Part shown: positions 25,611 through 43,403 of the stretch, piece after piece
Position numbering within the stretch: the stretch's first letter is position 1
Layout of the letters: each line of letters starts with the position of its first letter
Assembly (NCBI GenBank): GCA_947623805.1
Contig: CANQHZ010000024.1
Span: 1-43,756 of the forward strand
Source of the DNA: an uncultured Lachnospiraceae bacterium
GTDB taxonomy: Bacteria; Bacillota; Clostridia; Lachnospirales; Lachnospiraceae
DNA: 43,756 bases
Reading direction: 5' to 3'
Position numbers and translations under genes: made by a program
Notes under the pieces: generated by a model
The model's database searches: none
Seen by the model: the letters and a program-made list of their open reading frames with translations, nothing else
What the model was told of the DNA's origin: nothing

Positions 25611-25615
25611 AATAT

Positions 25616-27493
25616 TCAAACCTGATATATCTCCTGACATTCCACAATCATTCCCGTATCTATGTCAAATATAACTTTGCCGCTAAATTCTATTGTATAG
25701 TTACTGGTTTTTCCGCCTTGAAACCATGTTTCACCATACCAAGCATGTTCTTTTGTTACATATTCTTCAAATGTTTCCGATTCTACAAAATGGGTATCAT
25801 GAACAATACAATCTTTTCTAAAAAACAAGCTGCCACGGTAAATAGCTCCCCCGCAAATCCTATCGTCTTCATAGGACTTTATGACCCTTTTTCCACTGCT
25901 TTCTGTTTGTATATAACGTCCATCGCCGTCTTCCGGATTTCCATCATCAGACAAAATCCAATCACCATTTTGATAGCTTACTACATTATGAATTGTATCA
26001 ACGTTTCCGTTTTGATCATATAAAGACAAATCAAACTCATATCCTTCTTCAAACTGCTCAAATATCTCATCAGGAATAACATAAGGATATGTTATAATGC
26101 AATTTGTAACTTCATAATAATCACCACAGTCAATAATCTCTGTGCCATTACCATATTCGTCCGCATATACAGACCAGTAAATAGAAGCGCTAGTTAAAAA
26201 AGTATCAAAATTAATCGGTTCTATTTTTTCTACTTTGCCTTCCGGATATCTAATCGCCGCCCGATATCCAGCCTTGAATCTTTCCAATTCTTCTTTGGTA
26301 TATCCATAAGTGTTCACCTGGCTCTCGTCAATTTCTGATGTTATGCTGCTTTTGTCTGCGCTATCCCCAGATATTTGCAAAACATCCTCAATACTTTCCC
26401 ATGTTTTTTCCTCAATTCCTTTTTGCAAAATATATGTAAGCGGAATACCCATATCATGATGACCTCCAAAAAAATGATCCCATCCAAATTTTTTTCGTTT
26501 AGGTGCTTCCGTTACACTGCCACCTATCGCTTTTGGAAATAATGTAGTAAAAATGTCGTTGTCCAAATCCTTTACGGAAAATTCAAGGTCAGTCCCATAT
26601 CTAGTGGCACTTGCCCAAGGCGGCATATTCGGGACAGAATCATCTACATCTTTAAAGTTAAAAGCATTGGATACCTTTTTAGGATTTATAAACCAGTTTT
26701 TCATATAGGTACGTGGTGCCGTTTGAAGAAAATATGGTGCTGCAACAGTATTTACCAGCCAATTGCTCGTACAGGTATGTGGTGCTTCAAACGTGTACGT
26801 GTATATTTTGTTTTTATCTCTTCCCGCTAGGTTGAAAATAGTATCTGTAACAGATAGACCATTTGCAACTGCCCCTCCCAGAGAATGACCAGTAATGAAA
26901 AAATAGTTGTCTTCTTTTTGTAAATCTTTTATTTTTTTCCCTGTAACATTTTCCGCATATACTATGAAATCAGCACATACACTATTTATAGCTGACTCAA
27001 AAAACTCTTTTCCGCCACTTTCTATATCTGTATAAATATCCGCAGCACTATGTGTCCCCCTTACTACAATAACAAAAATATTCTTTATATTTCCATTATC
27101 GATATATTGTCCATACCCTAAACATGAGGACGGATGCTTGTATGACCAAACTTCATTTTGATAGCAAGCTTTTATTTTTGTGTATCCAAGGGCTTTCATC
27201 GTGTCTTTTATGTCTATGTCTGACCGAGCCGATTCTGAACTGTTTGTTATATAATAAATTTCATCTGACAACACTGCTCCCGTTAAAGCGAGTTCCCAGT
27301 TCATCACACCCGAACTATTATTCAGAAAATCAAACCCAGATTTTAATTTCAAATAAATAGGTTTATCATCGGGAATATAACCGCCGCCGATGAAAGGGGC
27401 AAAATAATTCTCTTTATCATCGGCATATACTGTAGTAACGGTAATAAATACTGTCATAATCGCAGCTAAAAATACAATTACTGTATGTTTCAT
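25616..27493 (-). CDS. Secreted class 3 lipase with unique C-terminal region
   Basis: About 625 residues. Signal peptide MKHTVIVFLAAIMTVFI...VYADD, then a class 3 lipase domain closely related to its two neighbours: IVVRGTHSAADIYTD, ITGHSLGGAVANGLSVTD, NFKDVDDSVPNMP and HHDMGIPLTYILQKG. The catalytic Ser, Asp and His are all present. An insertion of about 25 residues follows the TYTFEAPHTC segment, where SNWLVNTVAAP precedes a near-repeat of the same motif. The C-terminal 220 residues are acidic and beta-rich, not recognised, and share neither the RsiV-like nor the repeat modules of its paralogues. The start at 27493 has GGAAGGA 6 nt upstream. Confidence 0.87.
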   Translation of the reverse strand: MKHTVIVFLAAIMTVFITVTTVYADDKENYFAPFIGGGYIPDDKPIYLKLKSGFDFLNNSSGVMNWELALTGAVLSDEIYYITNSSESARSDIDIKDTMKALGYTKIKACYQNEVWSYKHPSSCLGYGQYIDNGNIKNIFVIVVRGTHSAADIYTDIESGGKEFFESAINSVCADFIVYAENVTGKKIKDLQKEDNYFFITGHSLGGAVANGLSVTDTIFNLAGRDKNKIYTYTFEAPHTCTSNWLVNTVAAPYFLQTAPRTYMKNWFINPKKVSNAFNFKDVDDSVPNMPPWASATRYGTDLEFSVKDLDNDIFTTLFPKAIGGSVTEAPKRKKFGWDHFFGGHHDMGIPLTYILQKGIEEKTWESIEDVLQISGDSADKSSITSEIDESQVNTYGYTKEELERFKAGYRAAIRYPEGKVEKIEPINFDTFLTSASIYWSVYADEYGNGTEIIDCGDYYEVTNCIITYPYVIPDEIFEQFEEGYEFDLSLYDQNGNVDTIHNVVSYQNGDWILSDDGNPEDGDGRYIQTESSGKRVIKSYEDDRICGGAIYRGSLFFRKDCIVHDTHFVESETFEEYVTKEHAWYGETWFQGGKTSNYTIEFSGKVIFDIDTGMIVECQEIYQV

Positions 27494-27507
27494 AGTTTTC
27501 CTTCCAA

Positions 27508-28443
27508 TCAATCTATCTCTATCCAAAGAACAGGGCGTACCGCTGCCATTCCAGACACGTCTTGAACTTGAATTTCATCTGCCTCATAAGATATTACCGC
27601 TGCGGAGTCATCTGAAACACCCGGAGATCTGAGCCACCAAATACAGAATCCTTCCCCATATTCTTCCTCCATCTCTGCATATTGTTCTCTAATAGCTTCT
27701 TCATCATCATAACCGCTTTCTCTTGCCTGCTCTAAAACGGCTTCCATAAATCTTTCCTTGGCATACTCTGTCAATGGAGGGTATTCAATAATACCAGAGC
27801 CTAAATACAATATTGCTTCATCTGCATTCAGTAGATAAACTTCATCTTTCGTTGCGTTTGAATCGTCCGTTTGATACAATATATCTTCTATGTATTCATC
27901 ACTATTTGTAACTATCCAGCTCCCATCTTCATCCACGCCTGCATAAAGTCCAGGATTTTCTACAGTCTGAGTTATTATCATTTCCTTTTCTTCAGAAGAA
28001 AACGCTTCATCTATAAAGTTATCGTTCAGCCACTCCCTTAGTGCACTGTTTTCCCATGTTACATCTTCGCTGTCAGTGTTATAAGCCCTGTATTCCAGAC
28101 AATATTCACTTATGAGAAATACACAACCATCCTCTTTTTCCAAAACAATCCATTCAATCGGTTCTTTGCCATCAGATTCATCATTATCCTGCTCATAGGT
28201 GCCAAATTCTATCGTGTCACCAATTTCAATTTGCTGTTCCGTATATTCTCTTGAAGGCTTTTTCCTTCTTGAAAGGAACAAAAATGCGGTCAAAAACAAC
28301 AGCGCAATAATAAAACAAATCACTAATATAATAATTATATTAGGAAATTTATTCTTTTTTTTAGCAACTATTGATCCGCAATTGGGGCAAAAAACATCTT
28401 TCTTATACAGTTTTGCTCCACATTCACTACAAAATTTTGCCAT
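27508..28443 (-). CDS. Zinc-ribbon, membrane-anchored DUF6273 protein
   Basis: About 311 residues. An N-terminal zinc ribbon (FCSECGAKLYKKDVFCPNCGS, two CxxC pairs) precedes one membrane helix (about 37-62, IIIILVICFIIALLFLTAF), and then an extracellular DUF6273 domain: EPIEWIVLEKEDGCVFLIS, VTWENSALREWLNDNFIDEAF and CIWWLRSPG. This domain is common in Firmicutes surface proteins, with no known activity. SD GGGAGGAG precedes the ATG at 28443. It lies between two lipase genes on the same strand (about 15-bp and 90-bp gaps), so it is likely cotranscribed and may act with the lipases at the cell surface. Confidence 0.82.
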   Translation of the reverse strand: MAKFCSECGAKLYKKDVFCPNCGSIVAKKKNKFPNIIIILVICFIIALLFLTAFLFLSRRKKPSREYTEQQIEIGDTIEFGTYEQDNDESDGKEPIEWIVLEKEDGCVFLISEYCLEYRAYNTDSEDVTWENSALREWLNDNFIDEAFSSEEKEMIITQTVENPGLYAGVDEDGSWIVTNSDEYIEDILYQTDDSNATKDEVYLLNADEAILYLGSGIIEYPPLTEYAKERFMEAVLEQARESGYDDEEAIREQYAEMEEEYGEGFCIWWLRSPGVSDDSAAVISYEADEIQVQDVSGMAAVRPVLWIEID

Positions 28444-28533
28444 ACAGCTCCTCCCAGCCAAACTCAAAGTTCAAAATCAAACAGTAAAAAACATTTTTGC
28501 TTACATATTTTAAGCTTATTTGTATACAAAATA

Positions 28534-31500
28534 CTAATGCGTGTATTCTTCCATAAAAGACACTGGTGAATAATCATTAATCGAATTTCTATACAAATCT
28601 AAATATGTCAAATTAGTCAAGCCCGATAATGCGCTTACATCACTTATATAATTGTATGATAAATCCAAGTATGTCAAATTAGTCAAGCCCGATAATGCAC
28701 TGATATCACTAATGCCATTCCCTTTCAAACGCAAAATTGTCAAATTAGTCAGCTTTGATAATACACTAATATCAATAGGTGAAAATTGATCACTATTAAT
28801 ATCTGACAAATTCAAATTTTCCAGCTGAGGCAATTCCGATAACACACTAATATCAGAAACTATAGTATATGATAAATTTAGGCGTGTCAGCTTTGTTAGC
28901 CCCGACAATACGCTAATATCGGAAACTGATGAATTATATGATAAATCCAAAAATGTTAAGTTAGGTAATGTCTGTAAAACACTAATATTATTACTATTAA
29001 TTCCACTATGTGACAAACTCAGGATCGATAACTGTGGCAATTCTGACAATATGTTAATATCATCAATGTTATTGAACCCCAAGTTCAAATATGTCAGTTG
29101 AGTTAGATTTGATAACACATCAATATCGCTAATATTATTGAATCTTAAATTCAAATCTGTTAGTTGCGTCAAATTCGACAACGCACTGATATCACTAATT
29201 TCATTACTGCTCAAAATCAAGTTTGTCAACTGAGTTAAATCTGACAACGCACTAATATCAGTGATGTCCTTATTATCCAAATTAAGCTCCTTAATGTCCC
29301 ACACATCACTTAACATAATATTCCTGTCATTAATCCCTGTTATTTCACGCATAGCGTTCTCCAGGTTTATATCTTTCCAATCCATCACATGATCTGATAG
29401 TCCAGATTTCTCCCAAGAAACAGAATCAAACTTATTTTGCATATTTTCTTCAATTTCTGACGCAGTAGTTAAATTTTCCGGGTTATCAACATTACCTAAG
29501 CTATTCCTATCCTCAGCAGCGTCTGTGTCATTCAAAATTTCTGAAAGATATTTATATTCATATCGTTCCTCGGACTTACTGCCATCGCTATTATAAGACA
29601 CATATCTAGTCTTGTTTCCGAAACTGTCATATCCATACTCATATCTCAAAATAAAACTTCCATCACCATTATAACCCGCTTCTTTAATCAAATTACCAGC
29701 GTTATCATATTCATATTCTCCCCTGTAATAAACGTTACCATCTTTGTCATACCGTATATTCTCAATCACATTGCCGGCATTATCATATTTATATTTATCC
29801 TCACCCCCTCCGGAAATGCTTCCATCATCATTATAGGATATATACTTAATCTGGTTTCCAAAACTATCGTACTCACATTCATGCCAATATAAAATACTCC
29901 CATCGTCATTGTAAGTCACATCTTTTATTTCATTCCCAGCACTGTCATATTCATATTCATTCTGTACAGTAATACTTCCATCCGCATTATATAATATGGT
30001 CCTAATCCTATTACCAGCATCATCATATTCATATCCGTGGCAAAAAATACGTCCATTTATGTCACAACTTGTTTCCTTAATTTTGTTACCGATAATATCA
30101 TATTCATATTCATCCCATACAGCAACGCTCCCATCCGCATTATACCGCACTTCTTTAGTCTCATTGCCAGCACTATCATACTCATATTCGTACCACAGAA
30201 TAACATTTCCGTCCGAGCCATATTCTATCGACTTGATTTGATTACCATTGCTATCATAGCTAAACTCCCATTCTATACCAACACTACCATCTGAATTATA
30301 TTCCTCTGTCTTGATTTGATTACCCGCACTGTCATACACATACTTATCTATCCGTTCTGAACCATCATCATAATAATAATTAGTCTGCGCAAGTACTATC
30401 TTATCATCTATATCTGCCCTAGCGCTTTCACTTTCAATCTCATTACTAGATACTTGCAAAACGTCCTCAATACTTTCCCATGTTTTTTCCTCAATGCCTT
30501 TTTGCAAAATATATGTAAGCGGTAGACCCATGTCATGATGACCAAATATATCTCCATAGTTGTAAACTTTTGGAGCTTCTATTACACTTCCGCCTTTCGC
30601 ATTCGGAAATAGCGTCATAAATATTTGATTGTCTAAGTTTTCTACCACCCTGTTCAAAAATTCCTGATTCAGTTCAGAAATTATATACATCCCTGTAATA
30701 CCCTCATATAAGTACCTTGAAATATTATTCCCAACCGAAAATTCAAGATCTGTTCCGTATCTAATGGCTCCAACACCTACTGGAACATTTGCAACAAAGT
30801 CATCTACATCTTTGAAGTTAAATGCATTTGACATCCCCTGTGGATTCATCCACCAATAATTAAAACAAGTATGCGGTGCCTCAAATGTATAAGTATAGAT
30901 TTTATTGTTATCATGTCCTGCCAAGTCAACAATAGTACCTGTTATGGACAACCGATTTGCAATCGCTCCTCCAAGAGAATGTCCTGTGATAAAGAAAAAG
31001 GTGTCTTCGTTCTTTAAATCTACATCTTTCTCTATAACATCTTCCACAAATTTCATAAAATCATCGCGTACATTAAATGTTGCTTCTTCAAATGTTCTAA
31101 AACCTCCATTCAGCACATCCGTCCAAAAATCAGCTCCGCCTTGTGTTCCCCTCACAACTATGGCAAATATATTTTTATACTTTCCATTATCATAGTATCG
31201 CTTATATCCAAAACAAGCAGATGGATGCAGGACTGAATATGGATAATAATAATAGCGTGTTGTATCATATCCCAAATCAATCAATGTAGATTGAGCAGTT
31301 GACCGTTTTGTTTCCGCCTGATATCCTAAATCATCCAATGCAGATTGAACAGCTGACCGGTTCTCTTTCTCCTTATTTGATTTCAAATTAACTGGGTAAT
31401 CATAAACCATAGGCTGATCCAATTCCGAATTGACCGACAGTTTATAAACCTCTTTCGACAACACCGCGCCAGTTAATGCAAGTTCCCAGTTTATCATACT

Positions 31501-31689
31501 TGAATTATTATCTAAAAAATCAAAACCTGATTTTAGTTTTAAATTAATACATTTATCATCAGGAATATATCCACTGGAAAAAGAAGCAGTTATATAATTA
31601 TTCTCTGCAGCATCAACACGTATTGAAAAAGTCATTATGTTAAATAATGTCATAGAAACAGCCAAAATCATTGAAATTACACGTTTCAT
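28534..31689 (-). CDS. Secreted lipase fused to YD repeats and leucine-rich repeats
   Basis: About 1051 residues in four parts. (1) Signal peptide MKRVISMILAVSMTLFNIM. (2) Class 3 lipase (about 50-430) with IVVRGTQGGADFWTD, ITGHSLGGAIANRLSITG, NFKDVDDFVANVP and GHHDMGLPLTYILQKG; the triad is present. It has a short internal duplication near residues 115-150 (ALDDLGYQAETKRSTAQS, LIDLGYDTTRYYYY). (3) About ten YD repeats of roughly 25 residues (EYDSAGNEIKDVTYNDDGSI type, about 440-720). (4) About ten 22-residue internalin-like LRRs (LTNLTYLDLSYNYISDVSAL type, about 800-1040). No sorting signal follows. GGGAG lies 7 nt before the ATG at 31689. I know no standard family with this architecture. 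Confidence 0.88.
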   Translation of the reverse strand: MKRVISMILAVSMTLFNIMTFSIRVDAAENNYITASFSSGYIPDDKCINLKLKSGFDFLDNNSSMINWELALTGAVLSKEVYKLSVNSELDQPMVYDYPVNLKSNKEKENRSAVQSALDDLGYQAETKRSTAQSTLIDLGYDTTRYYYYPYSVLHPSACFGYKRYYDNGKYKNIFAIVVRGTQGGADFWTDVLNGGFRTFEEATFNVRDDFMKFVEDVIEKDVDLKNEDTFFFITGHSLGGAIANRLSITGTIVDLAGHDNNKIYTYTFEAPHTCFNYWWMNPQGMSNAFNFKDVDDFVANVPVGVGAIRYGTDLEFSVGNNISRYLYEGITGMYIISELNQEFLNRVVENLDNQIFMTLFPNAKGGSVIEAPKVYNYGDIFGHHDMGLPLTYILQKGIEEKTWESIEDVLQVSSNEIESESARADIDDKIVLAQTNYYYDDGSERIDKYVYDSAGNQIKTEEYNSDGSVGIEWEFSYDSNGNQIKSIEYGSDGNVILWYEYEYDSAGNETKEVRYNADGSVAVWDEYEYDIIGNKIKETSCDINGRIFCHGYEYDDAGNRIRTILYNADGSITVQNEYEYDSAGNEIKDVTYNDDGSILYWHECEYDSFGNQIKYISYNDDGSISGGGEDKYKYDNAGNVIENIRYDKDGNVYYRGEYEYDNAGNLIKEAGYNGDGSFILRYEYGYDSFGNKTRYVSYNSDGSKSEERYEYKYLSEILNDTDAAEDRNSLGNVDNPENLTTASEIEENMQNKFDSVSWEKSGLSDHVMDWKDINLENAMREITGINDRNIMLSDVWDIKELNLDNKDITDISALSDLTQLTNLILSSNEISDISALSNLTQLTDLNLRFNNISDIDVLSNLTQLTYLNLGFNNIDDINILSELPQLSILSLSHSGINSNNISVLQTLPNLTFLDLSYNSSVSDISVLSGLTKLTRLNLSYTIVSDISVLSELPQLENLNLSDINSDQFSPIDISVLSKLTNLTILRLKGNGISDISALSGLTNLTYLDLSYNYISDVSALSGLTNLTYLDLYRNSINDYSPVSFMEEYTH
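28555..29270 (-). repeat. DNA repeats encoding the leucine-rich repeats
   Basis: About ten in-frame units of roughly 66 bp, with one or two longer ones, encode LT-x-L-x-x-L-x-L-x-x-N-x-I-S-D-I-S-A-L-S. The last two units are almost identical in DNA (GTCAAATTAGTCAAGCCCGA recurs at 28608 and 28674), a sign of recent duplication. Coding, not CRISPR. Confidence 0.8.
29545..30385 (-). repeat. DNA repeats encoding YD (RHS-like) repeats
   Basis: About ten in-frame units of roughly 72-75 bp encode YEYD-SAGN-x-I-K...Y-N-x-DGS. Units vary more than the LRR units. YD repeats are typical of RHS/wall-associated surface proteins and form extended beta shells or strips. Confidence 0.75.
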
Positions 31690-31762
31690 AATCTTACTCC
31701 CAATCAATTTCTGTCCAGACAGCTGAACATACATCAGTATCCGAGTTTTAAATACAGCACTG

Positions 31763-33325
31763 TCAATTAATATATTTTTCTTTCAACTTAACCCTGTCAA
31801 TCTTTCCATTTGCATTCAATGGCAGACTGTCCAAACAAATCACCAAGCTTGGCAACATATACCGAGGCAATAGTGTAGCAAGCTTTTTATTAATTTCACT
31901 GCTTGTATATGATTTTCCTTCCAAAAACAAAACAATAAAATCATACATAGGATTGTATAAACAACAACATGATGCAACACCGTCTATGGTTGAAGCAGCC
32001 GTTTCAATCTCACCAAGTTCGATCCGATGACCAAGATGCTTAATCTGAAAATCTTTCCGTGAGAGGTAAATCAGTTCATGGTATTCATTGTATTTCACCA
32101 AATCACCAGTTCGATATATTTTCTCCTCGTAAGCTTTCTGAAGAGGATTCTGTATGAAAGCTTGTGATGTCCGCTCCGGATCATTGTAATATCCAGCCGC
32201 AAGGCAAGTGCCACGAACACACAACTCTCCTACTATGTCTGGCTCTGTCACTAATCTGTCCTGATCATCAAGCACAAGAATTTCTGTATTACGCATTGGT
32301 CTGCCAATAGGAAGCGGCTCATCATCACTGAATGGACGATCAACGATATAATAGGTGCAAGCATCAGTAATTTCTGTTGGACCATAAAGGTTAGCATACT
32401 GTACATTAGGCAGATGACGGCGCCATAGGTTTAAGGTTTTATTATGCATAACCTCGCCACAAAAAAGTATCCGTTTAAGCGTTTTTGACAAATCTACTGT
32501 TTCAAAAGCTTTAGACCACGCCACCTGAGACAGCGCTGATGGCACCCAAAAAATGGTGCTAATCTTATTATCTGCCAGATATTGCAATAACTGCGGTATT
32601 TGATGGAACAAGTCTTCCGAAATAATGTGAAGCTCCGCCCCTGTTTTTACCGATGAATAAATATCCAAAATAGAATTATCAAAGTAAAACGGTGCTTGAT
32701 TGCCAATCGAATCTTTTTCTGTGATATTAAATTGATCTGTTACCCAATCTATATAATCTATGACACTCCTATGTGTAACTGCCACGCCTTTGGGCATACC
32801 AGTAGAACCGGATGTGAACAGAACATACAACAAGTCTGTGTCAAGAATACGATCAACAAATTGCGCAGCTTCTATACCCCCCCCCTGTATGTTATTATTA
32901 AGTGCAAAGTTTTCGCTCATTTCATTGGTGATATCCTCAAAGCAAAGAACATAACCGCAAAAATCAATTTCTTTCCCCCTGCCGATTTGTTCACTGTTCT
33001 CGCGCGTCGCGATAAACATAATCGGCTGCAGAGTGTTTATAATCTTTTCCACGCGTACAAATGGCATATCTGTCGCAATTGGACAGTAAAAACATCCACT
33101 GTAGGCTACACCCAAATAAGTCAAAAGCATATCTGTTGACTTTTCCATATAAATTACCACAGGGCATTTTCTTCCCGGGACGATTACTTCAATCTGCTTG
33201 GCAATAGATAAAGCCTTTTGGCGGACCTCAGCCCATGTATAAGAACCTTTGTTATCCACGAATGCAATTTTTTCGGGGAAACATCTCGCGGTATATTCAA
33301 GCCATTGAACTACACTGTTTTGCAT
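31763..33325 (-). CDS. Stand-alone amino-acid adenylation enzyme (DltA-like)
   Basis: 520-residue ANL-family enzyme that should activate an amino acid with ATP and load it on a carrier protein. Core motifs: LLYVLFTSGSTGMPKGVAVT (A3), APFYFDNSILDIYSS (A4), ANLYGPTEITDAC (A5), YRTGDLVKY (A7), RKDFQIKHLGHRIELGEIE (A8) and LNANGKIDRVKL (A10 Lys). By alignment to GrsA my manual pocket reading is D-N-L-W-L-C-L-D-A-K, matching no code I can name. It is directly downstream of the free carrier protein (30-bp gap), the arrangement of DltA/DltC-type pairs, and should charge that ACP or serve the NRPS in trans. GGAGG precedes the ATG. Confidence 0.88.
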   Translation of the reverse strand: MQNSVVQWLEYTARCFPEKIAFVDNKGSYTWAEVRQKALSIAKQIEVIVPGRKCPVVIYMEKSTDMLLTYLGVAYSGCFYCPIATDMPFVRVEKIINTLQPIMFIATRENSEQIGRGKEIDFCGYVLCFEDITNEMSENFALNNNIQGGGIEAAQFVDRILDTDLLYVLFTSGSTGMPKGVAVTHRSVIDYIDWVTDQFNITEKDSIGNQAPFYFDNSILDIYSSVKTGAELHIISEDLFHQIPQLLQYLADNKISTIFWVPSALSQVAWSKAFETVDLSKTLKRILFCGEVMHNKTLNLWRRHLPNVQYANLYGPTEITDACTYYIVDRPFSDDEPLPIGRPMRNTEILVLDDQDRLVTEPDIVGELCVRGTCLAAGYYNDPERTSQAFIQNPLQKAYEEKIYRTGDLVKYNEYHELIYLSRKDFQIKHLGHRIELGEIETAASTIDGVASCCCLYNPMYDFIVLFLEGKSYTSSEINKKLATLLPRYMLPSLVICLDSLPLNANGKIDRVKLKEKYIN

Positions 33326-33355
33326 ATTATCATATCCTCCATTTCATCAATATAT

Positions 33356-33583
33356 TTACTCGTACTTTCCATAAGCTTCCAAATAATCTACGATATCTTT
33401 GACACATACAAATTTCGTAATATCTCGATCTGCGATCTCAATGCCAAAGACATCTTCAAACTCGCTAACAATCTCAACAACGTCAAAGGATGACAAACCA
33501 AGGTCAGCCTCTAAAATGGACTGCTCATTAATATCCGTAATTCCCGTATATTGTTCTAAAATTGACTTTATCTGCTCAAACAT
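33356..33583 (-). CDS. Free acyl/peptidyl carrier protein
   Basis: 75-residue four-helix carrier protein. The phosphopantetheine Ser lies in ADLGLSSFDVVEIVSEFED (near residue 36), with acidic helix II as usual for ACPs. Its ATG overlaps the NRPS stop by 8 nt (ATGTTTGA), with GGAGG in the NRPS 3' end, so it is translationally coupled to the NRPS. It is likely to carry the starter acyl or aminoacyl unit to the first condensation domain. Either the FadD-like enzyme (40907-42460) or the DltA-like enzyme could load it. No phosphopantetheinyl transferase is in this window. Confidence 0.92.
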   Translation of the reverse strand: MFEQIKSILEQYTGITDINEQSILEADLGLSSFDVVEIVSEFEDVFGIEIADRDITKFVCVKDIVDYLEAYGKYE

Positions 33584-36500
33584 TTTCTTTTATCCTCCAA
33601 TATCCAATTTTTTCAAAATATGCTGTGTACTTGCGCAGGTACTCTAACCCTATTTCGCCCCAGGTAAATCCTAGCCGCCGTAAATATTCTTCAGTAAATC
33701 GGTTTTCAATACGAATGTTACTGTCATAATTAAGACGGTCATGTTCGTCCAAGTCATTAATAAATAATTCAAGAATGTGTTCCATCCCAGCCTGCCTTGC
33801 AGTTCCACGAAGAGCAGAAGCAAACTCTTTTCCAGAAACAACTTGAATGGGATATCCCAACTCGGAAAAATACTTTATAAGTATGTTTAAATACACTACC
33901 TTTGTACTGTTAATGTGAAACACAGTGCGATTCTGATCAAAGTGCCGTGCCAAGAGCATAATAGCTTTTGCCGCTTCGTCAATAGGAGTAAATTCCACAT
34001 ACATTCCATCTTCAATCAAATAATCAGGCAACATTCCCAGTTCGAGAACACCTTTAATTCGCTGTGCGGCAGCATTAGTTTTATAGTTTATCTGAAAGAC
34101 GCCATCACTGGCACGATTAGTCAAGTTTCCCATACGCATAATACAAGCCTGCACTCCATCCCTGACTGACTCCAACACCAGCTTTTCCGCCTCAAATTTA
34201 CTTCTGGCATAGACATTTTCCAATGGCTGACCTATATATAAACTGTCTTCGTAAAAATGTTTTTCTGTATCACTTACATAGCCATCAAAAACGTCAATGT
34301 TTCCATTACCAGACACGCTTATTGTAGAAATATGAATCAGCCTTACTCCACTGTGCTTACAAAAATCTACTATCCGTCTTGTGGTGTCCACATTTACATC
34401 ATAGAAATACTTATATGATCCATAATGCTTTACACTTGCAGCAGCATTGATGACAGTGTTCGCGTTATCAAGCAGGACTTGGTAATCCCGAGCATTTAAA
34501 TCAAAATTGTCCTTTTGTAAATCTCCGCAGAAAGTCTGAATTCGCACACCCAACAGAGAAATATATTTTTCTCCAAAATAAAATTTCAGTAATTCTTTAA
34601 GACGTTTTTCGCTATCTGCTTGATTTTCCCCACGCACAAGACAATACGCTATACCCTTGTCGTTGTCCAAGTAATCCGCCAGAATATGTATGCCTAAATA
34701 CCCCGTCGCGCCTGCAAGTAAAATGTTTCCCACTTCTGTTCTGTCAGGAATATACTTTATTTCCGCACGGTTCTTAGCCAATACAGCGTTTACTGCCGTA
34801 AAGTCTGTTTCCTTATATGGGACAAGCGACTTATTATCCATTACTGTTGATGATTTTTGATTAGAATTTATCGGATTACTTCCCAATTCTATAAATTCAC
34901 TCAATTCTCGCACGGTAGGGTATTCAAAAATATTTTGAAGCGAAAAATAAATTTCCTCCGTATGTGCCTGCGCCAGAAACTCAATAGCCTTTAAACTGTC
35001 GCCTCCAAGATCAAAAAAGTTATCTTCCCTGCCAACTGGAGAATACTCAAGTACTTTTTCCATTAAAGCTGCCAAACGCCTTTCCAGCTCACTTGCTGGC
35101 GCGACAAACTCTTTGGCAAAAGAGATATCATGCAAATCAACCTCTGGCAACGCTTTACGATCAATTTTTCCGCTGGAAGTGAGTGGAAGCTTGTCCAGTC
35201 TGGTAAATATGTGAGGCATCATATACCGAGGGAGTTTGTTCCGAATGGCGGATTTAATTTCATCCAAAGTAACCAAATCACCAGACACATAGAATGCGCA
35301 GATAAGCTGCCGCCCTTTCTCGTCTTTGCGCACTGATACTACTGCCTGATTGACACCTTCTACACTGACAATTGCGTTTTCAATCTCGCCCAGCTCAATT
35401 CGCAGCCCACGGATTTTTACCTGAAAATCATTCCGCCCCACGTAAATGATATTACCATCTTTCCTCCAATATGCTAAATCACCTGTCTTGTAAAGCTTGC
35501 CTGAACCAAAAGGATTTTGCACAAACTTTTCATCAGTTAATTCAGGGCGATTAAGATATCCTGCCCCTACTCCGTCACCAGCAATGCATAATTCACCAGT
35601 AACACCGACTGGTACAAGGTGCATGTACTTGTCTACAATATAAATTTGAATATTGGCAATTGGACTGCCGATAGTAATATTTCCCGGCTCAACTACCATT
35701 GTAGTGACACAAATGGTGGCTTCAGACGGACCATAAAGATTAATCACCTCTGCTGTTTCATTTACACCACGAATTAAAGAAAGAAGTTCTTCCGGAAACA
35801 CCTCTCCTCCAACAATAAAACGCGTAACATTCTTCCAAACCTTCAGACGAATGCTCCCCCCTATATACTGCTTCAGCTTTGTTGGAGTGGCAAACATAAG
35901 CGTTTGCGGATGACTTTCTAACAATTTTTCCAAGCAAGATTGATTATATATTGCATCCTCATCTGCCAAAACAACAGGAATCCCACGAATTAAAGGAATT
36001 ATTGTCTCTAAAATGGAACAGTCAAATGTATAAATGGTAAAGGCACATGCCGAGCTAATGTCGCGATACCAATTTGCATTAGCTTCGGAGAAATTTAATA
36101 TCCCACTATGCGTCAATGTACTGAGCTTTGGTGTTCCTGTAGAACCCGATGTTGGAATCACGCAATAAAGATTTTCTCCCATAATCGAATGGATTATCGG
36201 TTCTTTTGACAGTAATGCTGTAAGATTTTCTCCCACAATAAAATACTTCGCATTACTTTCCCGCAGTAATGCATCCTTGCGTTGTTGCGGGTAATCCGGA
36301 TCTATTGGAAGATAAGCCGCCCCTGTTTTGAGTATCCCAAACATAGTTGCAATCAGGTGGCTATCCCTCGGCAGGGCAAAACCTACAATATCTCCAGGCT
36401 TCACACCTTTCTCTATTAAACCATTAGCAATGCAATTTGCCTCATCATTCAGCTCTTGGTATGACAAGCTACGATCACAAGCAATAATCGCCGTCTTGTA

Positions 36501-39500
36501 AGGATTTTTTCTCACTTGTTCCTCAAAAATCTGGTGGACATATTTGTCTTTGGGATAATCAACAACACTATCATTGAAATCTATCAACAACATGTGGCGT
36601 TCCGCCTCACTAATGACAGAAAGCTCATAAATTACCTTTCCCTCATCCAACATTTGAGAAAGCAGTAACTTATATCCTTCTATAAATCGCTGAATGGTTG
36701 TTTCATTGAAAAGCGCGGTACAATACTCAATCATCAGTACTACATCGTTTTTGCGCGGCATTATGTTTAAAGTAAAGTCATATTTTGATGTGGCTATTGG
36801 AATTTGAAGCAGCTCTACTGGCGCATCTTCAAAAACCGTCTCTGTCATTTCTTGATTTTGATACGCGAACATTACATCAAATAGCGGATTGTGATTTTCT
36901 GCTGAAATACCAAGTTTTTGTACTAATTCTCCATAAGGGTAACGCTGATGGCTAAGAGCATCCCTTGAAACAATTTTTACTTCTGACAAAAATTGCCCAA
37001 CCGTCTTTTTACCTTCCGGATACGCACGCAGCGCCAGAGTGTTGACAAACATTCCAAGAGCATTTATAAATTTCCCGTTCCTGCCGCTCGCAGGAGTACC
37101 GACTACGATGTCTTCATTCCCGCTAAATTTAGAAAGCAGGATATAGAACGCAGCTAAGTAGTATGCAAACGGTGTGATGCCCAGTTTTCGGCTCTGTCCG
37201 CAAATTCTCTTATGCAGTTCAATGGAAATATCATGATATATTGCCGCACCTTCATAGCTCTGATTTGTCGGTCTTGGATAGTCAGTATTCAACTCCAGTA
37301 CAGGTGGTTTTTCCTTATACATGTTAAGCCAATAATCTTCATCCTCCAGATTATCATGCTCATTCATTGCGAATTCACGATATTGCACAGCGCGGTCTTC
37401 CAACTCACGCCCCATATAAAATTCGTTCAGTTCTCGAAGAAATACAGACAATGAGCCGCCATCGGCAATTATATGGTGCATATCCAACAGGACAGTATTT
37501 TCAAAATAACCTATCCGCAATAATGGCGCAATTTCCAAATTAAATGGACGGATAAAAGCGGAAATATCGTTGCTGGAAAGCTTCTCTATACGGCATCTGG
37601 CGTTATCTTCCCCAACCTGCATAATGGTTCCGTCACGATTCTCAAAATGAGTGCGGAGAATTTCGTAACGGGACACAAGCTTGTCTACGGCATTCTGCAG
37701 CCTTGTGGGATCCAGCTTGCTGACTTTGAATGCACAAGGTATATTATATGTTGTGCCTCCGCTCATACTCTGAGCAATATACACTCGCATTTGCGCCTGA
37801 GTAGCAGGAATATCCCCTTGGATAATTTCCTCCGCAGCCCGAACTTCCGCTAAATCCAGTTTGCCCGACAAAGCGCCTAGGGTTTCCGATTCAAAAATCG
37901 TCTTTACATCCGCAAAGTAGCCCTCTTTCTCTAAAGCGGCAGCTAATTCAATAGCTTTGAGCGAATCTCCCCCTAAGTCAAAGAAATTATCATGCATGCC
38001 TACCCGCTCTAATCCAAGTATATTGGCAACAGCGGCGGATACAATATTTTCTGCGTCCGTAGCAGGAGCAATGTATTCAACATCAGATACAGCAACAGAT
38101 AAATCCACATCAGGCAATGCGTTGCGGTCAGTCTTCCCGCTTGGCGTAGTCGGAAATGCGGTAAGCTTTGTGAATATGTGGGGCATCATATATCGTGGAA
38201 GTCTTTCACGAATGGCATCCTTGACTGCGTCCAATTTTACTGGAGCATCTTCCGTATAAAAAGCACAGATAAGCTGCCGCCCTGTATCATCCTTACGAAT
38301 CACCACCACAGCTTGACTAACCCCATCCACCATGGAAATGGCATTTTCAATCTCCCCAAGTTCAATCCGCAGTCCGCGGATTTTGACTTGAAAATCGTTT
38401 CTGCCTACATAGACGATGTTACCGTCTTCCTTCCAATAAGCCAAATCGCCAGTCTTATAAAACCTACCGGAGCCGAATGGATTTGGCACAAATTTCTCAG
38501 CAGTCAATTCAGGACGGTTGAGATAACCCACTCCGACACCATCCCCGGCAATACAGAGTTCGCCTGTCACGCCAATGGGAACAGGAGCCATATGCTTATC
38601 CATGATGTAAATTTGTGTGTTAGCAATAGGTTTGCCAATTGGAATGTATGAGGCATCCTCAATTTCAAAGGCGGTTGCAGCAACTGTTGTTTCTGTAGGA
38701 CCATACATATTCATGACTTTTGCAGCCAGATTTCTTTGTAATTCTAAAATAAATGTTTGAGATGGGGTTTCCCCGCCGCATACAATTGTTTTTAAATTAC
38801 TGACCCTTGATATCACTTCATCATTTAGAAGTAACGCCTTAACTTTTGTTGGCGGGGCTTGAATCATATCTACAGAGTAACTACATAGCAATTTAGCCAG
38901 CATAGAAGGTTGTTGTGTTTGCTCTTCATTCGCAAGAAGTATTTCCGAGCCGACTAAAAGTGGATACAGGCTCTCTGTTATAAAAATATCAAAACTAACA
39001 GAAGAAACGGATAAAATCTTCTTACAGCCAGCTATTGCATTAAGAGCATGAAAGCCATAAATATAGTTTATAGCATTTTTATGTGTAAGAAGTGTTCCTT
39101 TGGGCTTTCCTGTGCTGCCTGAAGTATAAATACAATAGCAAGAAATATCACTTGCCAAATCTAACTCTGGATTTTGAACATTGTTATTTTCCATAAGGCA
39201 GGCTATTTCCGCCTGTGTCACAAAAACTTTTGCGCTACTGTCCTCCAGCATATATTTAATACGCTCTTGGGGATAATCCATATCAATTGGCAGATAGGCG
39301 GCTCCAGCCTTGAGAATAGCGAACATAACCGGTATCAGGCAACTGTTCCGAGGCAAGGCAAAGGCTACGATGTCGCCTGGCTTTACGCCCCTCTCTATCA
39401 AACCGTGAGCAATTCGGTTAGCCTCGCTGTTCAACTCGCGATATGTCAAAGTACGGTCACAGGCAATGACCGCTGTTTTGTCTGCCATTCTCCCCACCTG

Positions 39501-40838
39501 TTCCTCAAATAGTGTGTGAACACACTTCCCCCGAGGATAATCGGCAGCAGTATCATTAAAGTCCACAAGAAGTTTCTGCTCTTCTTCAGCAGATAAAAGT
39601 TTCAATTCACCAATTTTTTTTGTATCACTCAAAATGGCGTCAGACAAAATATTAACAATATGAGAGTACACTCGCTGAATTTCCTGAGCGGTGAATTTAT
39701 CCGTACGATAGTCTATATGAACACGGAAAGTGCCGACTTTGTCTCGGTCATCAATGTGAACCTGCAGGCTCTCAGTCTGAATGCCACTATGATACCATGC
39801 AGTTTCAACTCCACTCTCGGCATCAGTGACAGTAGCATTCTGATAGCTCAATACTACATCATAAAGCTTCTCAATAAAGCCACACTCATGTCGAATTGCT
39901 GTCAGTATATCATTATAATGGAACTTCTGATGGCGAAACACAGATAAAACTTCTTCCTGCATAATTGCAAGATTTTCCGCAAAAGTACTATCATACCCAA
40001 TATGAACCAATATAGGCGCAGAATTGATGAACATCCCCATTGTATGTTTTTCGCGAAAACCGCCACGGTTGAGAATAGGGGTACCGATGTAAAACCATTC
40101 CGCATTATCCCTGATCCGACTGAAATAAACAGCAAATGCGGTAAGAAACAAAACAAATGGAGATGTATTGTGTTCCTTTGCATAAGTACGGATTAGAGCC
40201 GCATTTTCTATATCAATACAGAATGTTGCCCGGCTGGCAATATAAGAATCACCCGATTTTTCAGAGATATATGTAGGCTCCGGGCATTGTTTAAACTGCT
40301 CCAAGAAAAACATTCTATCCTTCTCCCAGCGCCTGCTATGAGCATAATCCTTTTCACCTTCTATATATTCTGAATACGGAAACGCAGTCGGTTCTTTCCC
40401 GGATATCAGGGCGCAGAGCTGAGAGGCAATCAACGTAAGCGACCAAGCATCTCCCACTATATGATGACACTTGACCAGGAGACCGCACTGATCAGGCAAA
40501 AGGATAATTTGAATTTCGCACAGCGGACCACTAATGAAAACTGGCGTTTTGGCATATTCCTCAGCATAAATAGTGAGGGCATTCTTATTTTCAAAACGCA
40601 GGATATTTACGGGCTGAGGTTGAAAGTCTACAATTTCCTGCCTGATTTGACCATCCTGTTCAAACATGCGGATACGCAATGCTTCATTGCGGCGAAAAAT
40701 TTCATGGACAGCATGAGTAAGCTCATCTGCACTATGCAGTCCATTCAAAAGCACACTGCCACATATTACAGCTACCGCGCCGCCTGCATATTTCTCAGTC
40801 TCATAGATTAGTTTTTGTGAATTTGATAATTGCAACAT
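33576..40838 (-). CDS. Nonribosomal peptide synthetase, C-A-T-C-A-T-R
   Basis: Two-module NRPS of about 2420 residues. C1 (1-430, active site CHHIVGDAWS near 125). A1 (A3 TSGSTGKPKG near 570; A5 MNMYGPTETT). T1 (FFDLGGDSLKAIE near 955). C2 (MHHIIADGGS near 1120). A2 (A3 TSGSTGTPKL near 1563, Leu for the usual last Gly; A5 INLYGPSEAT). T2 (FFDLGGDSLKAIE near 1946). Terminal reductase (NADPH loop LLAGATGYLG near 2046; catalytic Tyr/Lys in VYARSKFEAEK near 2215). There is no epimerase or thioesterase. Manual pocket readings are D-I-T-Q-V-G-M-V-A-K (A1) and D-C-L-F-I-G-L-I-C-K (A2); substrates are not assignable with confidence. An N-terminal C domain implies an acylated N-terminus; the R domain implies release as an aldehyde. 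Start 40838, with AGGAG 8 nt upstream. Confidence 0.95.
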   Translation of the reverse strand: MLQLSNSQKLIYETEKYAGGAVAVICGSVLLNGLHSADELTHAVHEIFRRNEALRIRMFEQDGQIRQEIVDFQPQPVNILRFENKNALTIYAEEYAKTPVFISGPLCEIQIILLPDQCGLLVKCHHIVGDAWSLTLIASQLCALISGKEPTAFPYSEYIEGEKDYAHSRRWEKDRMFFLEQFKQCPEPTYISEKSGDSYIASRATFCIDIENAALIRTYAKEHNTSPFVLFLTAFAVYFSRIRDNAEWFYIGTPILNRGGFREKHTMGMFINSAPILVHIGYDSTFAENLAIMQEEVLSVFRHQKFHYNDILTAIRHECGFIEKLYDVVLSYQNATVTDAESGVETAWYHSGIQTESLQVHIDDRDKVGTFRVHIDYRTDKFTAQEIQRVYSHIVNILSDAILSDTKKIGELKLLSAEEEQKLLVDFNDTAADYPRGKCVHTLFEEQVGRMADKTAVIACDRTLTYRELNSEANRIAHGLIERGVKPGDIVAFALPRNSCLIPVMFAILKAGAAYLPIDMDYPQERIKYMLEDSSAKVFVTQAEIACLMENNNVQNPELDLASDISCYCIYTSGSTGKPKGTLLTHKNAINYIYGFHALNAIAGCKKILSVSSVSFDIFITESLYPLLVGSEILLANEEQTQQPSMLAKLLCSYSVDMIQAPPTKVKALLLNDEVISRVSNLKTIVCGGETPSQTFILELQRNLAAKVMNMYGPTETTVAATAFEIEDASYIPIGKPIANTQIYIMDKHMAPVPIGVTGELCIAGDGVGVGYLNRPELTAEKFVPNPFGSGRFYKTGDLAYWKEDGNIVYVGRNDFQVKIRGLRIELGEIENAISMVDGVSQAVVVIRKDDTGRQLICAFYTEDAPVKLDAVKDAIRERLPRYMMPHIFTKLTAFPTTPSGKTDRNALPDVDLSVAVSDVEYIAPATDAENIVSAAVANILGLERVGMHDNFFDLGGDSLKAIELAAALEKEGYFADVKTIFESETLGALSGKLDLAEVRAAEEIIQGDIPATQAQMRVYIAQSMSGGTTYNIPCAFKVSKLDPTRLQNAVDKLVSRYEILRTHFENRDGTIMQVGEDNARCRIEKLSSNDISAFIRPFNLEIAPLLRIGYFENTVLLDMHHIIADGGSLSVFLRELNEFYMGRELEDRAVQYREFAMNEHDNLEDEDYWLNMYKEKPPVLELNTDYPRPTNQSYEGAAIYHDISIELHKRICGQSRKLGITPFAYYLAAFYILLSKFSGNEDIVVGTPASGRNGKFINALGMFVNTLALRAYPEGKKTVGQFLSEVKIVSRDALSHQRYPYGELVQKLGISAENHNPLFDVMFAYQNQEMTETVFEDAPVELLQIPIATSKYDFTLNIMPRKNDVVLMIEYCTALFNETTIQRFIEGYKLLLSQMLDEGKVIYELSVISEAERHMLLIDFNDSVVDYPKDKYVHQIFEEQVRKNPYKTAIIACDRSLSYQELNDEANCIANGLIEKGVKPGDIVGFALPRDSHLIATMFGILKTGAAYLPIDPDYPQQRKDALLRESNAKYFIVGENLTALLSKEPIIHSIMGENLYCVIPTSGSTGTPKLSTLTHSGILNFSEANANWYRDISSACAFTIYTFDCSILETIIPLIRGIPVVLADEDAIYNQSCLEKLLESHPQTLMFATPTKLKQYIGGSIRLKVWKNVTRFIVGGEVFPEELLSLIRGVNETAEVINLYGPSEATICVTTMVVEPGNITIGSPIANIQIYIVDKYMHLVPVGVTGELCIAGDGVGAGYLNRPELTDEKFVQNPFGSGKLYKTGDLAYWRKDGNIIYVGRNDFQVKIRGLRIELGEIENAIVSVEGVNQAVVSVRKDEKGRQLICAFYVSGDLVTLDEIKSAIRNKLPRYMMPHIFTRLDKLPLTSSGKIDRKALPEVDLHDISFAKEFVAPASELERRLAALMEKVLEYSPVGREDNFFDLGGDSLKAIEFLAQAHTEEIYFSLQNIFEYPTVRELSEFIELGSNPINSNQKSSTVMDNKSLVPYKETDFTAVNAVLAKNRAEIKYIPDRTEVGNILLAGATGYLGIHILADYLDNDKGIAYCLVRGENQADSEKRLKELLKFYFGEKYISLLGVRIQTFCGDLQKDNFDLNARDYQVLLDNANTVINAAASVKHYGSYKYFYDVNVDTTRRIVDFCKHSGVRLIHISTISVSGNGNIDVFDGYVSDTEKHFYEDSLYIGQPLENVYARSKFEAEKLVLESVRDGVQACIMRMGNLTNRASDGVFQINYKTNAAAQRIKGVLELGMLPDYLIEDGMYVEFTPIDEAAKAIMLLARHFDQNRTVFHINSTKVVYLNILIKYFSELGYPIQVVSGKEFASALRGTARQAGMEHILELFINDLDEHDRLNYDSNIRIENRFTEEYLRRLGFTWGEIGLEYLRKYTAYFEKIGYWRIKENV

Positions 40839-40906
40839 TCGACCGTCTCCTAAGATTGGCATTAAACTGTGAATATCTGTCTTTTTTCAATCTTTATGCC
40901 ATATTT

Positions 40907-42460
40907 TTATTTTCTTTTTATTTTCTTTGTTGTAGTCTTCTCAAATGGCGTGTCACGAAATAACACACGCTGTATATGCTGATAAGATGGCAGGCTCTTG
41001 TTAAGTACCATGACGCTTTCCCGAACGCCTTCCTGTTGTTCTGCGTAAATTTCTGCTACCAGGACACCATCTTTTTCTGACACAACTACTTCCAATATAT
41101 TGGGAAGTGCCAACAGTTTGTTCTCCAGCTCCTCTGGAGAGACATTTTTGCCGTTGCTTAGAATGATAAGGTTTTTCTTTCGGCCAGTAATATAAATAAA
41201 GCCGTCATCGTCTATGTATCCTAAATCACCGGTATGAAACCAGTTATCAGACATAACTTCCTTTGTAGCGCCGTCATCCTGATAATATCCCAACATAACA
41301 TTATCACCCTGAACACAGATCTCTCCATCTATAATCCTGACTTCGTTACATGGAATCGCCAGTCCAATACTGCCAGAGCGAATATATCTGTTGCGGTTGA
41401 CCGCCACCACAGGAGCACACTCAGTAATCCCATAACCATTTAAAATCAGAATACCGATATCATCCATACCGTCGATGTATTCCTGACGAATGGCAGCTCC
41501 ACCTGAAATAAGTAAATCAAGATTCCCCCCAAAGTTGTCCAATATGGATTTGAACAGCTTACGGCGCAAATCAATTCCGAACTTTCGGAGGAAATTGCTA
41601 ATGCTTATCATTCGCCGCAGGAGCTTGTCTTTCCCCTGGTCTTTTGCAGTTTTCCATATGGTTTTGTACATCGTCTCCACATACAGAGGGACAAGACACA
41701 TATTTTGTGGGCGAAAGTTCTTCATATCGCCTTGGAAAGTACGCAGGCTGCGATTAATCCAAATAGGAACATGGTAGACCAGCATAACCAATACCCCTGC
41801 GGTAAGGGAAAATGTGTGGTGGAGCGGAAGTGTCAAAAGGGATGAGCCTGAAAAGGTAACATTCTGGCAGGAAGAAATAGCATCCACCATAAGCGCCTTT
41901 TGTGACAGCATAACTCCTTTGGGTTTTCCGGTTGTGCCGGATGTAAATATGATTGCACACATTGCTGATTCGTCTGTCTGAATGTCAACAGAACCGCCAT
42001 CCGCCAAAATCGTTGAAAAAGTATTCAGCGAAAGGATATGCCGTACCACCCCTCCTTGACTTATATGCTTGGCAGTATCGGCATAATTCTCCGCATATAC
42101 AAGAACATCCACTCCGGCAAACTCCAAAAGCTGAATAATGTCCTCATCAGATAGCTCCTTGTCAATGGGAACAATGATATTATCGCTCAAAACAGTGGCA
42201 AAATAGGTAAGAATCCACTCATAACTATTTTCACCCAGCACGGCAATCTTAACGCGCTGAAAGCCTTGTCGTCTGAGATAGGCCGAAAGAGCTTCTATGT
42301 CATGTTTGAATTGGGTATATGTTATGCTGACCACTTCATCACCGCGCTGAAACTGAAACGCAAGCTGAGCAGGAAATTCCTTAGCATTTCGGTCTATCAG
42401 TTGACGTAAGGATGTCAATTTCGGCTGAGGGTAATGAGGGTAAGAATGTTTCGTAGACAT
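40907..42460 (-). CDS. FadD-like acyl-activating enzyme
   Basis: About 517-residue ANL enzyme of the long-chain acyl-CoA/acyl-ACP ligase type: IIFTSGTTGKPKGVMLS, LPLHHTFSL, LLISGGAAIRQEYIDG, NGYGITECAPVVA, WFHTGDLGYIDDDG and GRKKNLIILSNGKNVSPEELE. The C-terminus ends at KTTTKKIKRK with the catalytic Lys region, so it is complete. It should activate a fatty or carboxylic acid as acyl-AMP and pass it to CoA or to the free ACP, giving the starter for C1 of the NRPS 70 bp downstream. The start is the ATG at 42460 with AAGGAG about 10 nt upstream; the open frame starts at a TTG at 42469. Confidence 0.9.
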   Translation of the reverse strand: MSTKHSYPHYPQPKLTSLRQLIDRNAKEFPAQLAFQFQRGDEVVSITYTQFKHDIEALSAYLRRQGFQRVKIAVLGENSYEWILTYFATVLSDNIIVPIDKELSDEDIIQLLEFAGVDVLVYAENYADTAKHISQGGVVRHILSLNTFSTILADGGSVDIQTDESAMCAIIFTSGTTGKPKGVMLSQKALMVDAISSCQNVTFSGSSLLTLPLHHTFSLTAGVLVMLVYHVPIWINRSLRTFQGDMKNFRPQNMCLVPLYVETMYKTIWKTAKDQGKDKLLRRMISISNFLRKFGIDLRRKLFKSILDNFGGNLDLLISGGAAIRQEYIDGMDDIGILILNGYGITECAPVVAVNRNRYIRSGSIGLAIPCNEVRIIDGEICVQGDNVMLGYYQDDGATKEVMSDNWFHTGDLGYIDDDGFIYITGRKKNLIILSNGKNVSPEELENKLLALPNILEVVVSEKDGVLVAEIYAEQQEGVRESVMVLNKSLPSYQHIQRVLFRDTPFEKTTTKKIKRK

Positions 42461-42524
42461 CTTTTTCAATCTCCTTTATCCTACATAATAATAAAAAAGG
42501 TTTACAGTATGCTCTTTTTATTTC

Positions 42525-43403
42525 TTATTTCTCTTGCATTTTTGTTTTCTTTATCCTTCTCTTTGCCAGATAGCTTAAAAACAGTAAAAAGAATAAAGAT
42601 ATATAACCAAGTCCTGCTGTCATATCTGTTGCTTCTGTTCTTGGGATAGTGCTGATTATTGAGATAACTGCTAAAAATGTACTTATTGTTAGACTGTTTC
42701 TGAAAATAACATAATATTTAGCATTATCCAAACATTTGTAATAAGGTATTGTTCTTCGCTTTATAGGACAAATGTCTAAAGGCAGTCCAAATATGTTTGC
42801 AATGATAACAAAGTGTAATAAAATACCGACAATTAACCAAATTTGCGTTATATGGAATATTACCCCAATAAGCGCTACCAATGACTTATCTTCAATAAAG
42901 TTTGTGTTCCCATACCATATGTATTCCATTCCATAATAATAAGGATAAAGCTGTTCTGGAAATGCCAAATATATTACCGCAACAATTATCCATAATATCG
43001 CCACTAATATCAAAAAAAATGAAATAATATAAATTCCGATTGAATGAGACGAAAACCTATGAAGCTTTTTGTCTTGGGATGGCAAAACCATCTGAGGATT
43101 ATACGCTAATTTAACAAAATGAATAGTAATATATGTAAGTCCAGCTATCAATATAGCAGCAAGCCACCTTCCTGCAAACAGTTCTATCAGACAAATAATA
43201 GCGGTCAACGAAATCAAGAGAATGTTTTCCTCTTTATAAGGTTTTAGAAGCATCAAAAGATGTACTGCGGTCATTAAAAAGAACACTAACTTATAAAAAA
43301 ATCCATGTACACTAACTAAAAAAAGAAGGTTAATTGCAATGTTGATAATTAGCCATATGCGGCATCCTTTTGTATAAGAGTGTAAAGGTGGTGTTAATTT
43401 CAT
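42525..43403 (-). CDS. Polytopic membrane protein, unknown function
   Basis: 292 residues with about seven hydrophobic segments (roughly 15-33, 35-52, 60-100 as two, 122-150, 180-205, 235-255, 265-282) and a Lys/Arg-rich C-terminus (AKRRIKKTKMQEK). No family recognised and no transporter signature, so export of the peptide product is only a guess. It is the first gene of the presumed NRPS-lipase transcription unit (55 bp to the stop of the next gene up to its own end), with AAGGAG before the ATG at 43403, and lies downstream of the promoter at 43561-43589. Confidence 0.8.
   Translation of the reverse strand: MKLTPPLHSYTKGCRIWLIINIAINLLFLVSVHGFFYKLVFFLMTAVHLLMLLKPYKEENILLISLTAIICLIELFAGRWLAAILIAGLTYITIHFVKLAYNPQMVLPSQDKKLHRFSSHSIGIYIISFFLILVAILWIIVAVIYLAFPEQLYPYYYGMEYIWYGNTNFIEDKSLVALIGVIFHITQIWLIVGILLHFVIIANIFGLPLDICPIKRRTIPYYKCLDNAKYYVIFRNSLTISTFLAVISIISTIPRTEATDMTAGLGYISLFFLLFLSYLAKRRIKKTKMQEK

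Follow-up and report, generated by a model that had tools for sequence, protein, structure and literature searches.

A putative lipo-dipeptide aldehyde assembly line in an uncultured Lachnospiraceae bacterium, with acyl supply predicted through a linked ligase and a discrete acyl carrier protein

The 43,756-nucleotide stretch analysed here (the window) is a complete contig, CANQHZ010000024.1 (C24), of an uncultured Lachnospiraceae bacterium whose draft genome amounts to 3.96 Mb in 229 contigs. On its minus strand, four codirectional open reading frames (ORFs) encode, in order, a FadD-like AMP-forming ligase (40907..42469), a nonribosomal peptide synthetase (NRPS; 33576..40862), a discrete acyl carrier protein (ACP) of 75 amino acids (33356..33583) and a stand-alone adenylation enzyme (31763..33325). 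We consider it quite probable, from the sequence comparisons below, that this cluster specifies a lipo-dipeptide aldehyde assembly line whose acyl group is supplied by the ligase by way of the ACP. The NRPS, 2428 amino acids long, has the Pfam domain order C-A-T-C-A-T-NAD_binding_4 (condensation, adenylation, thiolation and a terminal reductase domain, R); Pfam, motifs and a tree of C domains agree on two A-T modules with one internal C domain between them. The ACP matches PP-binding, the ligase and the stand-alone enzyme both match AMP-binding, and the ACP and NRPS genes share 8 nucleotides (33576-33583). The ligase ORF starts at a TTG, with an in-frame ATG at 42460, which the first-pass annotation of this DNA had taken as the end point. 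That annotation had described four codirectional genes with a free ACP overlapping the NRPS gene, and a C-A-T-C-A-T-R synthetase with intact reductase motifs; both descriptions are borne out by the ORFs, the Pfam matches and the motifs GATGYLG, STISVS and YARSK. Since the four-gene layout recurs in another genome of the family (G076) and on the contig L133 of a Lachnospira metagenome-assembled genome (MAG), it is not a product of chance.

By its place in the tree and its motif, the first condensation domain, C1 (39543..40862, limits approximate), is of the starter type. The tree held 99 C domains, taken from 38 of 80 reductase-domain loci (L133-L170), the window, L025, L038, L071-L090 and L108-L123; it was a quick tree with SH-aLRT support and no bootstrap, and C matches under 330 amino acids were dropped. 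A single split (SH-aLRT 97) separated 43 rows, all of them N-terminal and including 25 of the 26 that are linked to a ligase and 18 of the 23 without one (that is, with none in the fetched stretch of the locus), from 50 internal domains, five N-terminal domains without a ligase and one that is ligase-linked. The window C1 lies on the N-terminal side of this split and C2 (36573..37832, motif HHIIADG) on the internal side. Five of the 26 ligase-linked rows are free-standing C domains of loci resembling the pathway for oleoyl aminovaleric acid (OAA). The seventh position of the HHxxxDG motif is alanine or serine in 24/26 ligase-linked N-terminal domains, in 16/23 of the other N-terminal ones and in 0/50 internal ones, and the window C1 reads HHIVGDA (HHxxxDA). 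A preprint describes C domains accepting ACP-bound fatty acids as enriched in serine and alanine here, with glycine in those dependent on a peptidyl carrier protein, and places the former next to starter C domains (PMC13142362). The first-pass annotation had a leading C domain adding an acyl cap, and had named the clustering of C1 with domains that take no acyl donor as what would speak against it; C1 was found among the starter-type domains, and the proposed cap is upheld by tree and motif alike. Most of the relatives used throughout are MAG contigs, and some rows reach one contig twice (L111/L139, L072/L151, L113/L156 and L073/L169), so that the counts are non-independent.

Judged by descent and co-occurrence, the ACP is the partner of the ligase. 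In a tree of 30 rows, one of which (L036a) is not an ACP, the rows closest to the window ACP are all ligase-linked, and the eight true ACPs found beside relatives of the stand-alone adenylation enzyme form a single clade (support 99/97) outside of which the window ACP falls. Among 80 reductase-domain loci, the best 80 of at least 558, 20 have a ligase and 14 a small ACP, with the ligase accompanying the ACP in all 14, as counted with an ACP model built from 29 rows of the ACP tree, many of them in the counted loci. We assigned the ACP to the ligase because of this tree and because no ACP occurred without a ligase in the 80 loci. By the same ACP model, 24 of 39 ligase loci, gathered through this search and others, have an ACP no more than 400 bases away from the ligase, and 26 no more than 700, compared with 7 of 272 other ORFs of 430-640 amino acids in the same loci. 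In the window, G076, L133, L137, L138 and L141, the ACP is found beyond the NRPS, on the opposite side from the ligase; the last three share the order ligase-NRPS-ACP with the window and have no relative of the adenylation enzyme within the stretch covered, and that enzyme occurs in one of the 80 reductase-domain loci (L133). L138 belongs to Lachnospiraceae bacterium MC2017, probably an isolate, as its record carries no MAG label. The pairing of the ACP with a DltA-like enzyme in the first-pass annotation is not sustained by the ACP tree, the co-occurrence or these three loci, and the ACP was rejected as the carrier of the stand-alone enzyme on the first two grounds. A low-confidence structure model of the window ACP, predicted from a single sequence (mean pLDDT 72), had no match at E <= 0.001 and resembled fatty-acid ACPs, at a best E of 0.0058.

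In the proposed assembly line, the ligase, whose motifs are conserved across an alignment of 15 sequences, would convert a free fatty acid to an acyl-AMP and load it onto the discrete ACP, as its family and genetic linkage suggest. From its tree position, motif and linkage, C1 is predicted to transfer the acyl group from the ACP to the amine of a first amino acid held on T1 (37848..38072, FFDLGGDSL) and selected by A1 (38073..39527, limits approximate); the choice of A1 probably differs from that of its counterparts in the sister clusters. C2 would then couple the acylated first residue to a second, selected by A2 (35133..36542) and carried on T2 (34863..35102, FFDLGGDSL), the A2 pocket code being equal in all three clusters, and R (33579..34772), with its motifs intact, would use NAD(P)H to take the chain off as acyl-aa1-aa2-aldehyde. 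Closure of a pyrazinone or imine ring requires a free amine; because the N-terminus would be acylated, neither cyclic product is expected. The acyl-aa1-aa2-aldehyde proposed by the first-pass annotation thus gains support from C1, the domain order and the reductase motifs, and its suggestion of a third building block or starter from the DltA-like enzyme with the ACP does not. The nearest solved domain to R by sequence is 6VTJ (192.5 bits), from Methanobrevibacter ruminantium (PMC8097023), followed by that of AusA (114.6 bits).

Several observations weigh against this scheme as drawn. Two of the 26 N-terminal C domains linked to a ligase have glycine at the seventh motif position. The N-terminal clade also includes 18 C domains for which the fetched DNA shows no ligase, so that the clade may use other donors too. 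Six of the 20 ligase-bearing reductase-domain loci have no visible ACP, and R domains may reduce their products further, to alcohols. No fatty acyl-AMP ligase (FAAL) appeared among 41 solved-sequence relatives or 50 folds listed for the ligase; CoA ligases were best by sequence, and with the model of the ligase (mean pLDDT 87.5) the fold search ranked CoA ligases and their kin first among the matches listed. We therefore rejected the ligase as a typical FAAL, and because its best relatives are CoA ligases we kept an acyl-CoA donor under consideration: C1 could draw acyl-CoA from central metabolism, with the ligase acting as an acyl-CoA ligase and the ACP in a minor or other role, and the product would still be an acyl-dipeptide aldehyde. 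The CoA-ligase relatives and the ligase-free members of the clade fit this alternative, as does the description of acyl-CoAs as typical for starter C domains in the preprint (PMC13142362). We nevertheless regard it as rather unlikely, given that the ligase accompanies every ACP-bearing reductase-domain locus and that OaaC, a C domain of the free-standing kind seen in the same clade, is reported there to have yielded nothing with oleoyl-CoA (PMC13142362).

Comparison of the cluster with its two sisters points to horizontal transfer. G076 has the same four genes with the same 8-nucleotide overlap, at 80-93% identity except for A1 (69%), and L133 has the ligase, NRPS and ACP together with a broken adenylation gene. 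The NRPS domains other than A1 are 84-94% identical between the window and the sister clusters, the ligase, NRPS and ACP frames are open in all three, and the ratio of nonsynonymous to synonymous substitution rates (dN/dS) is 0.12-0.15 for the ligase and 0.10-0.11 for R. The core enzyme threonine synthase of the window genome shows 75% identity to that of G076, 70% to that of L133 and 83% to that of G196, a genome of the same genus that has no reductase-domain match at E <= 1e-30. Such a match was present in 41 of 397 family genomes, and in G076 alone at 92%. With threonine synthase as the one reference gene, the cluster is likely to have moved by horizontal transfer. Some 4 kb past the adenylation gene of the G076 cluster, two large serine recombinases lie side by side (L025:1496-4976). 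A close plasmid-borne copy was rejected, as megablast, the only search made of them, gave no near match to the cluster among 72,556 plasmid records.

The divergence in A1 is confined to a block. An identity scan placed it at about residues 592-742 of the NRPS (38637..39089, limits approximate), and the window NRPS is 89% identical to either sister outside residues 595-727 and 27% identical inside; the lowest 130-residue identity anywhere clear of residues 560-760 is 82%. Identity falls right after the P-loop motif (579-589) and recovers about 20 residues past the A5 motif (718), and the diverged stretch covers the substrate pocket. Compared with each other, G076 and L133 show 75% identity within these residues and 90% beyond them. 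The pocket codes, read from an alignment in which position numbers follow gramicidin synthetase, are DITQICMVA in the A1 of the window, DLSFVMGMG in G076 and DLTLIVGMG in L133, and the A2 code is DCLFFVLIC in all three. Because the divergence is a block with sharp ends, the A1 pocket was probably exchanged, and the aldehydes of the three clusters probably differ in the first amino acid and agree in the second. Exchange of this part of A domains is described as a known mode of NRPS evolution (PMC9205934). No donor of the pocket was found; among the loci gathered for this analysis, L135 matched the window stretch best, at 46%.

The stand-alone enzyme, code DNLFIFLDA, had been annotated as a DltA-like adenylation enzyme. 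It does belong to the amino-acid adenylation enzymes, passing the general model at 331.1 (cut-off 317.4), but its identity as DltA was ruled out, since its scores of 292 and 305 bits lie below both NCBIfam cut-offs (559.85 and 476). It resembles DltA of the DltA/DltC system in standing alone and in length, and the window differs from that system in these scores and in having an ACP outside the clade of those beside the enzyme's relatives; no MBOAT was found among 27 window proteins scanned with Pfam. In an alignment of 16 such enzymes, eight have the exact code DNLF[VI]FLDA, three of them in NRPS clusters and five elsewhere; another three, none of them from these clusters, end in LDV, and the remaining five have different codes. 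In seven of the eight outside loci with the FLDA code or its LDV variant, the gene adjoins one for an N-acylating enzyme: a formyltransferase in L024 and L028, a GNAT in L026 and L027 and an aminoglycoside-NAT-like protein in L029, L030 and L031, with none among the neighbours scanned in L033. MBOAT genes occur in L024, L027 and L028, and glycosyltransferases in L026, L031 and L033. A paralogue in the same genome (65% identity, on the contig designated C1) adjoins formyltransferase, ACP-like and MBOAT genes. These neighbourhoods suggest that enzymes of this family probably load one particular amino acid onto a carrier for the decoration of surface sugars, and the loci possibly serve an N-acylaminoacyl decoration. 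Locus L024:9978-14277 and its kin combine the stand-alone enzyme with an N-acylating enzyme, often with an ACP-like gene.

In the cluster itself, the enzyme was probably a later downstream addition that is probably not needed for the aldehyde product. We find it an evenly balanced question whether it is a passenger unrelated to the aldehyde, derived from the surface-sugar aminoacylation family and charging a carrier encoded elsewhere, for which the contig of the paralogue offers a candidate, the ACP-like protein at L024:12457-12687. The identical code in five relatives outside NRPS clusters, the N-acylating neighbours and the company of the paralogue all agree with a passenger, and so does the state of the gene, which as assembled terminates early in G076, has its frame broken in L133 and is intact in the window; an error of the draft assemblies possibly underlies these breaks. 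A passenger is less easily reconciled with the position right behind the ACP gene, kept in all three clusters (in the window at 30 nucleotides, with a GGAGG site), and with a dN/dS of 0.087-0.108 in NRPS clusters, which being low indicates past constraint. The same position, shared direction and constraint could instead mean that the enzyme loads an amino acid onto the cluster ACP, C1 receiving an aminoacyl or acyl-aminoacyl starter, which would give three residues or two alternative caps. We judge this improbable, as the enzyme's relatives are accompanied by ACPs of another type, the gene is broken as assembled in two of the three clusters and was not found in the layout-matched L137, L138 and L141, and an acyl-tripeptide needs three amide bonds, for which two C domains are too few. 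A further variant, with two loaders for one carrier, has the ligase and the stand-alone enzyme both charging the ACP and C1 starting from a fatty acid in some chains and an amino acid in others, so that a branched set of aldehydes would arise. It is decidedly improbable; if true, and taken together with cassette-like exchange of the pocket for the residue beside the aldehyde, it would give nature a means of varying protease inhibitors. Finally, the enzyme might step in for an impaired A2 by charging T1 or T2 in trans: A2 reads TSGSTGTPKLSTLTH in all three clusters, with PKL replacing PKG behind the P-loop. PKM and PKT stand at the same place in L135 and L139, where no such enzyme was found (L139 being a 5.5-kb contig), and the remaining A2 motifs, including SGKIDR, are intact. 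With the enzyme gene broken in two of three clusters as well, this is highly improbable, and trans loading on account of a dead A2 was rejected for the similar P-loop changes in clusters where the enzyme was not found.

The product class and the initiation logic of the predicted assembly line are already known, and a ligase-started, R-released lipopeptide, mutanoclumpin, is in print (PMC12403116). In a limited literature search we met no paper on a dipeptide aldehyde synthetase fed by a ligase and a free ACP, which is not to claim that none exists. The gut N-acyl dipeptide aldehydes share with the window the gut host, the NRPS, the N-acyl cap, the dipeptide and the C-terminal aldehyde (PMC8518294, PMC12327764); N-octanoyl-Met-Phe-H comes from Clostridium BGC0001686, and ruminopeptin, of Ruminococcus bromii, is described as an N-acylated Leu-Glu aldehyde (PMC8518294). 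Compared by description, the window differs from these two in its linked ligase, discrete ACP, extra adenylation enzyme and sister-variable A1 pocket. In the OAA pathway of Coprococcus eutactus (OaaA, OaaACP and OaaC), a ligase loads a fatty acid onto a free ACP, and amide formation falls to a C domain with a non-glycine motif (PMC13142362), the same three elements as are predicted to act in the window, with OaaA again compared by description. OaaC, however, is free-standing, acts on free amines and belongs to a class that often reads DHxxxDS (PMC13142362), whereas the window C1 reads HHxxxDA and is fused to A-T modules and R. The window genome itself carries an OAA-like C domain, ACP and ligase on contig C2 (L038:8567-12349), followed by a SpoVAD gene, and this C domain groups with the window C1 in one large clade. 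A free-standing C domain of the OAA type with a ligase nearby is also seen in L117, L118, L121 and L122. Mutanoclumpin (mcg), from the oral Streptococcus mutans, is predicted to start with a fatty acyl-AMP ligase acting on decanoic acid, and a terminal R releases it as an aldehyde; it differs in being made by a hybrid of polyketide synthase and NRPS, with the fatty acid predicted to go onto the megasynthase McgA and the aldehyde going on to a lactam (PMC12403116). The three-part logic is established for the initiation of daptomycin, with a FAAL (DptE), a free ACP (DptF) and a C-III domain (PMC9113097). Daptomycin is released by a thioesterase, whereas the window has an R domain and two residues only, and no FAAL among the ligase relatives listed. 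AusA, of architecture A-T-C-A-T-R, likewise gives an R-released dipeptide and is the best whole-protein NCBIfam match of the window NRPS, at 1403.5 bits, far below the cut-off of 2500; unlike AusA, the window NRPS begins with a starter C domain and is therefore not expected to yield a pyrazinone.

None of the four cluster genes was recognised as encoding a transporter. MatE-type transporters adjoin other reductase-ended NRPS genes (L082:3047-4747, L087:12981-14672 and L090:8578-10344). Upstream of the ligase, a probable membrane protein of 292 amino acids (42525-43403) matched nothing in Pfam or NCBIfam at E <= 0.001. Behind the cluster, at 23811-31734, are three class-3 lipase-like proteins with N-termini that look like signal peptides by eye, together with a DUF6273 protein; G076 has one class-3 lipase-like protein and a DUF6273 protein ahead of its ligase (L070:3781-7244). 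At E <= 1e-15, 3 of 397 family genomes have a member of this lipase family; two of the three are cluster-bearing, and in both the lipase lies beside the cluster. The lipase was not found in the genomes of L133, L135, L138 and L141 in a search that had no positive control, although the same query matched elsewhere.

Gut acyl-dipeptide aldehydes are reported to act in vitro as inhibitors of cathepsins and proteasomes, and to induce endoplasmic reticulum stress in an intestinal cell line (PMC8518294). If the assembly line is as predicted, a dedicated ligase and ACP would choose the acyl group here, and the fatty-acid amide and peptide aldehyde pathways of the gut would be joined by one acyl-delivery set. 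The combination of ligase, ACP and HHxxxD[A/S] in C1 would then be a simple sequence sign for gut aldehyde synthetases that use free fatty acids. The main specificity site of papain-type proteases is P2, the residue beside the aldehyde residue, and the A1 pocket suggests natural variation at this very position, with the code for the aldehyde residue kept.

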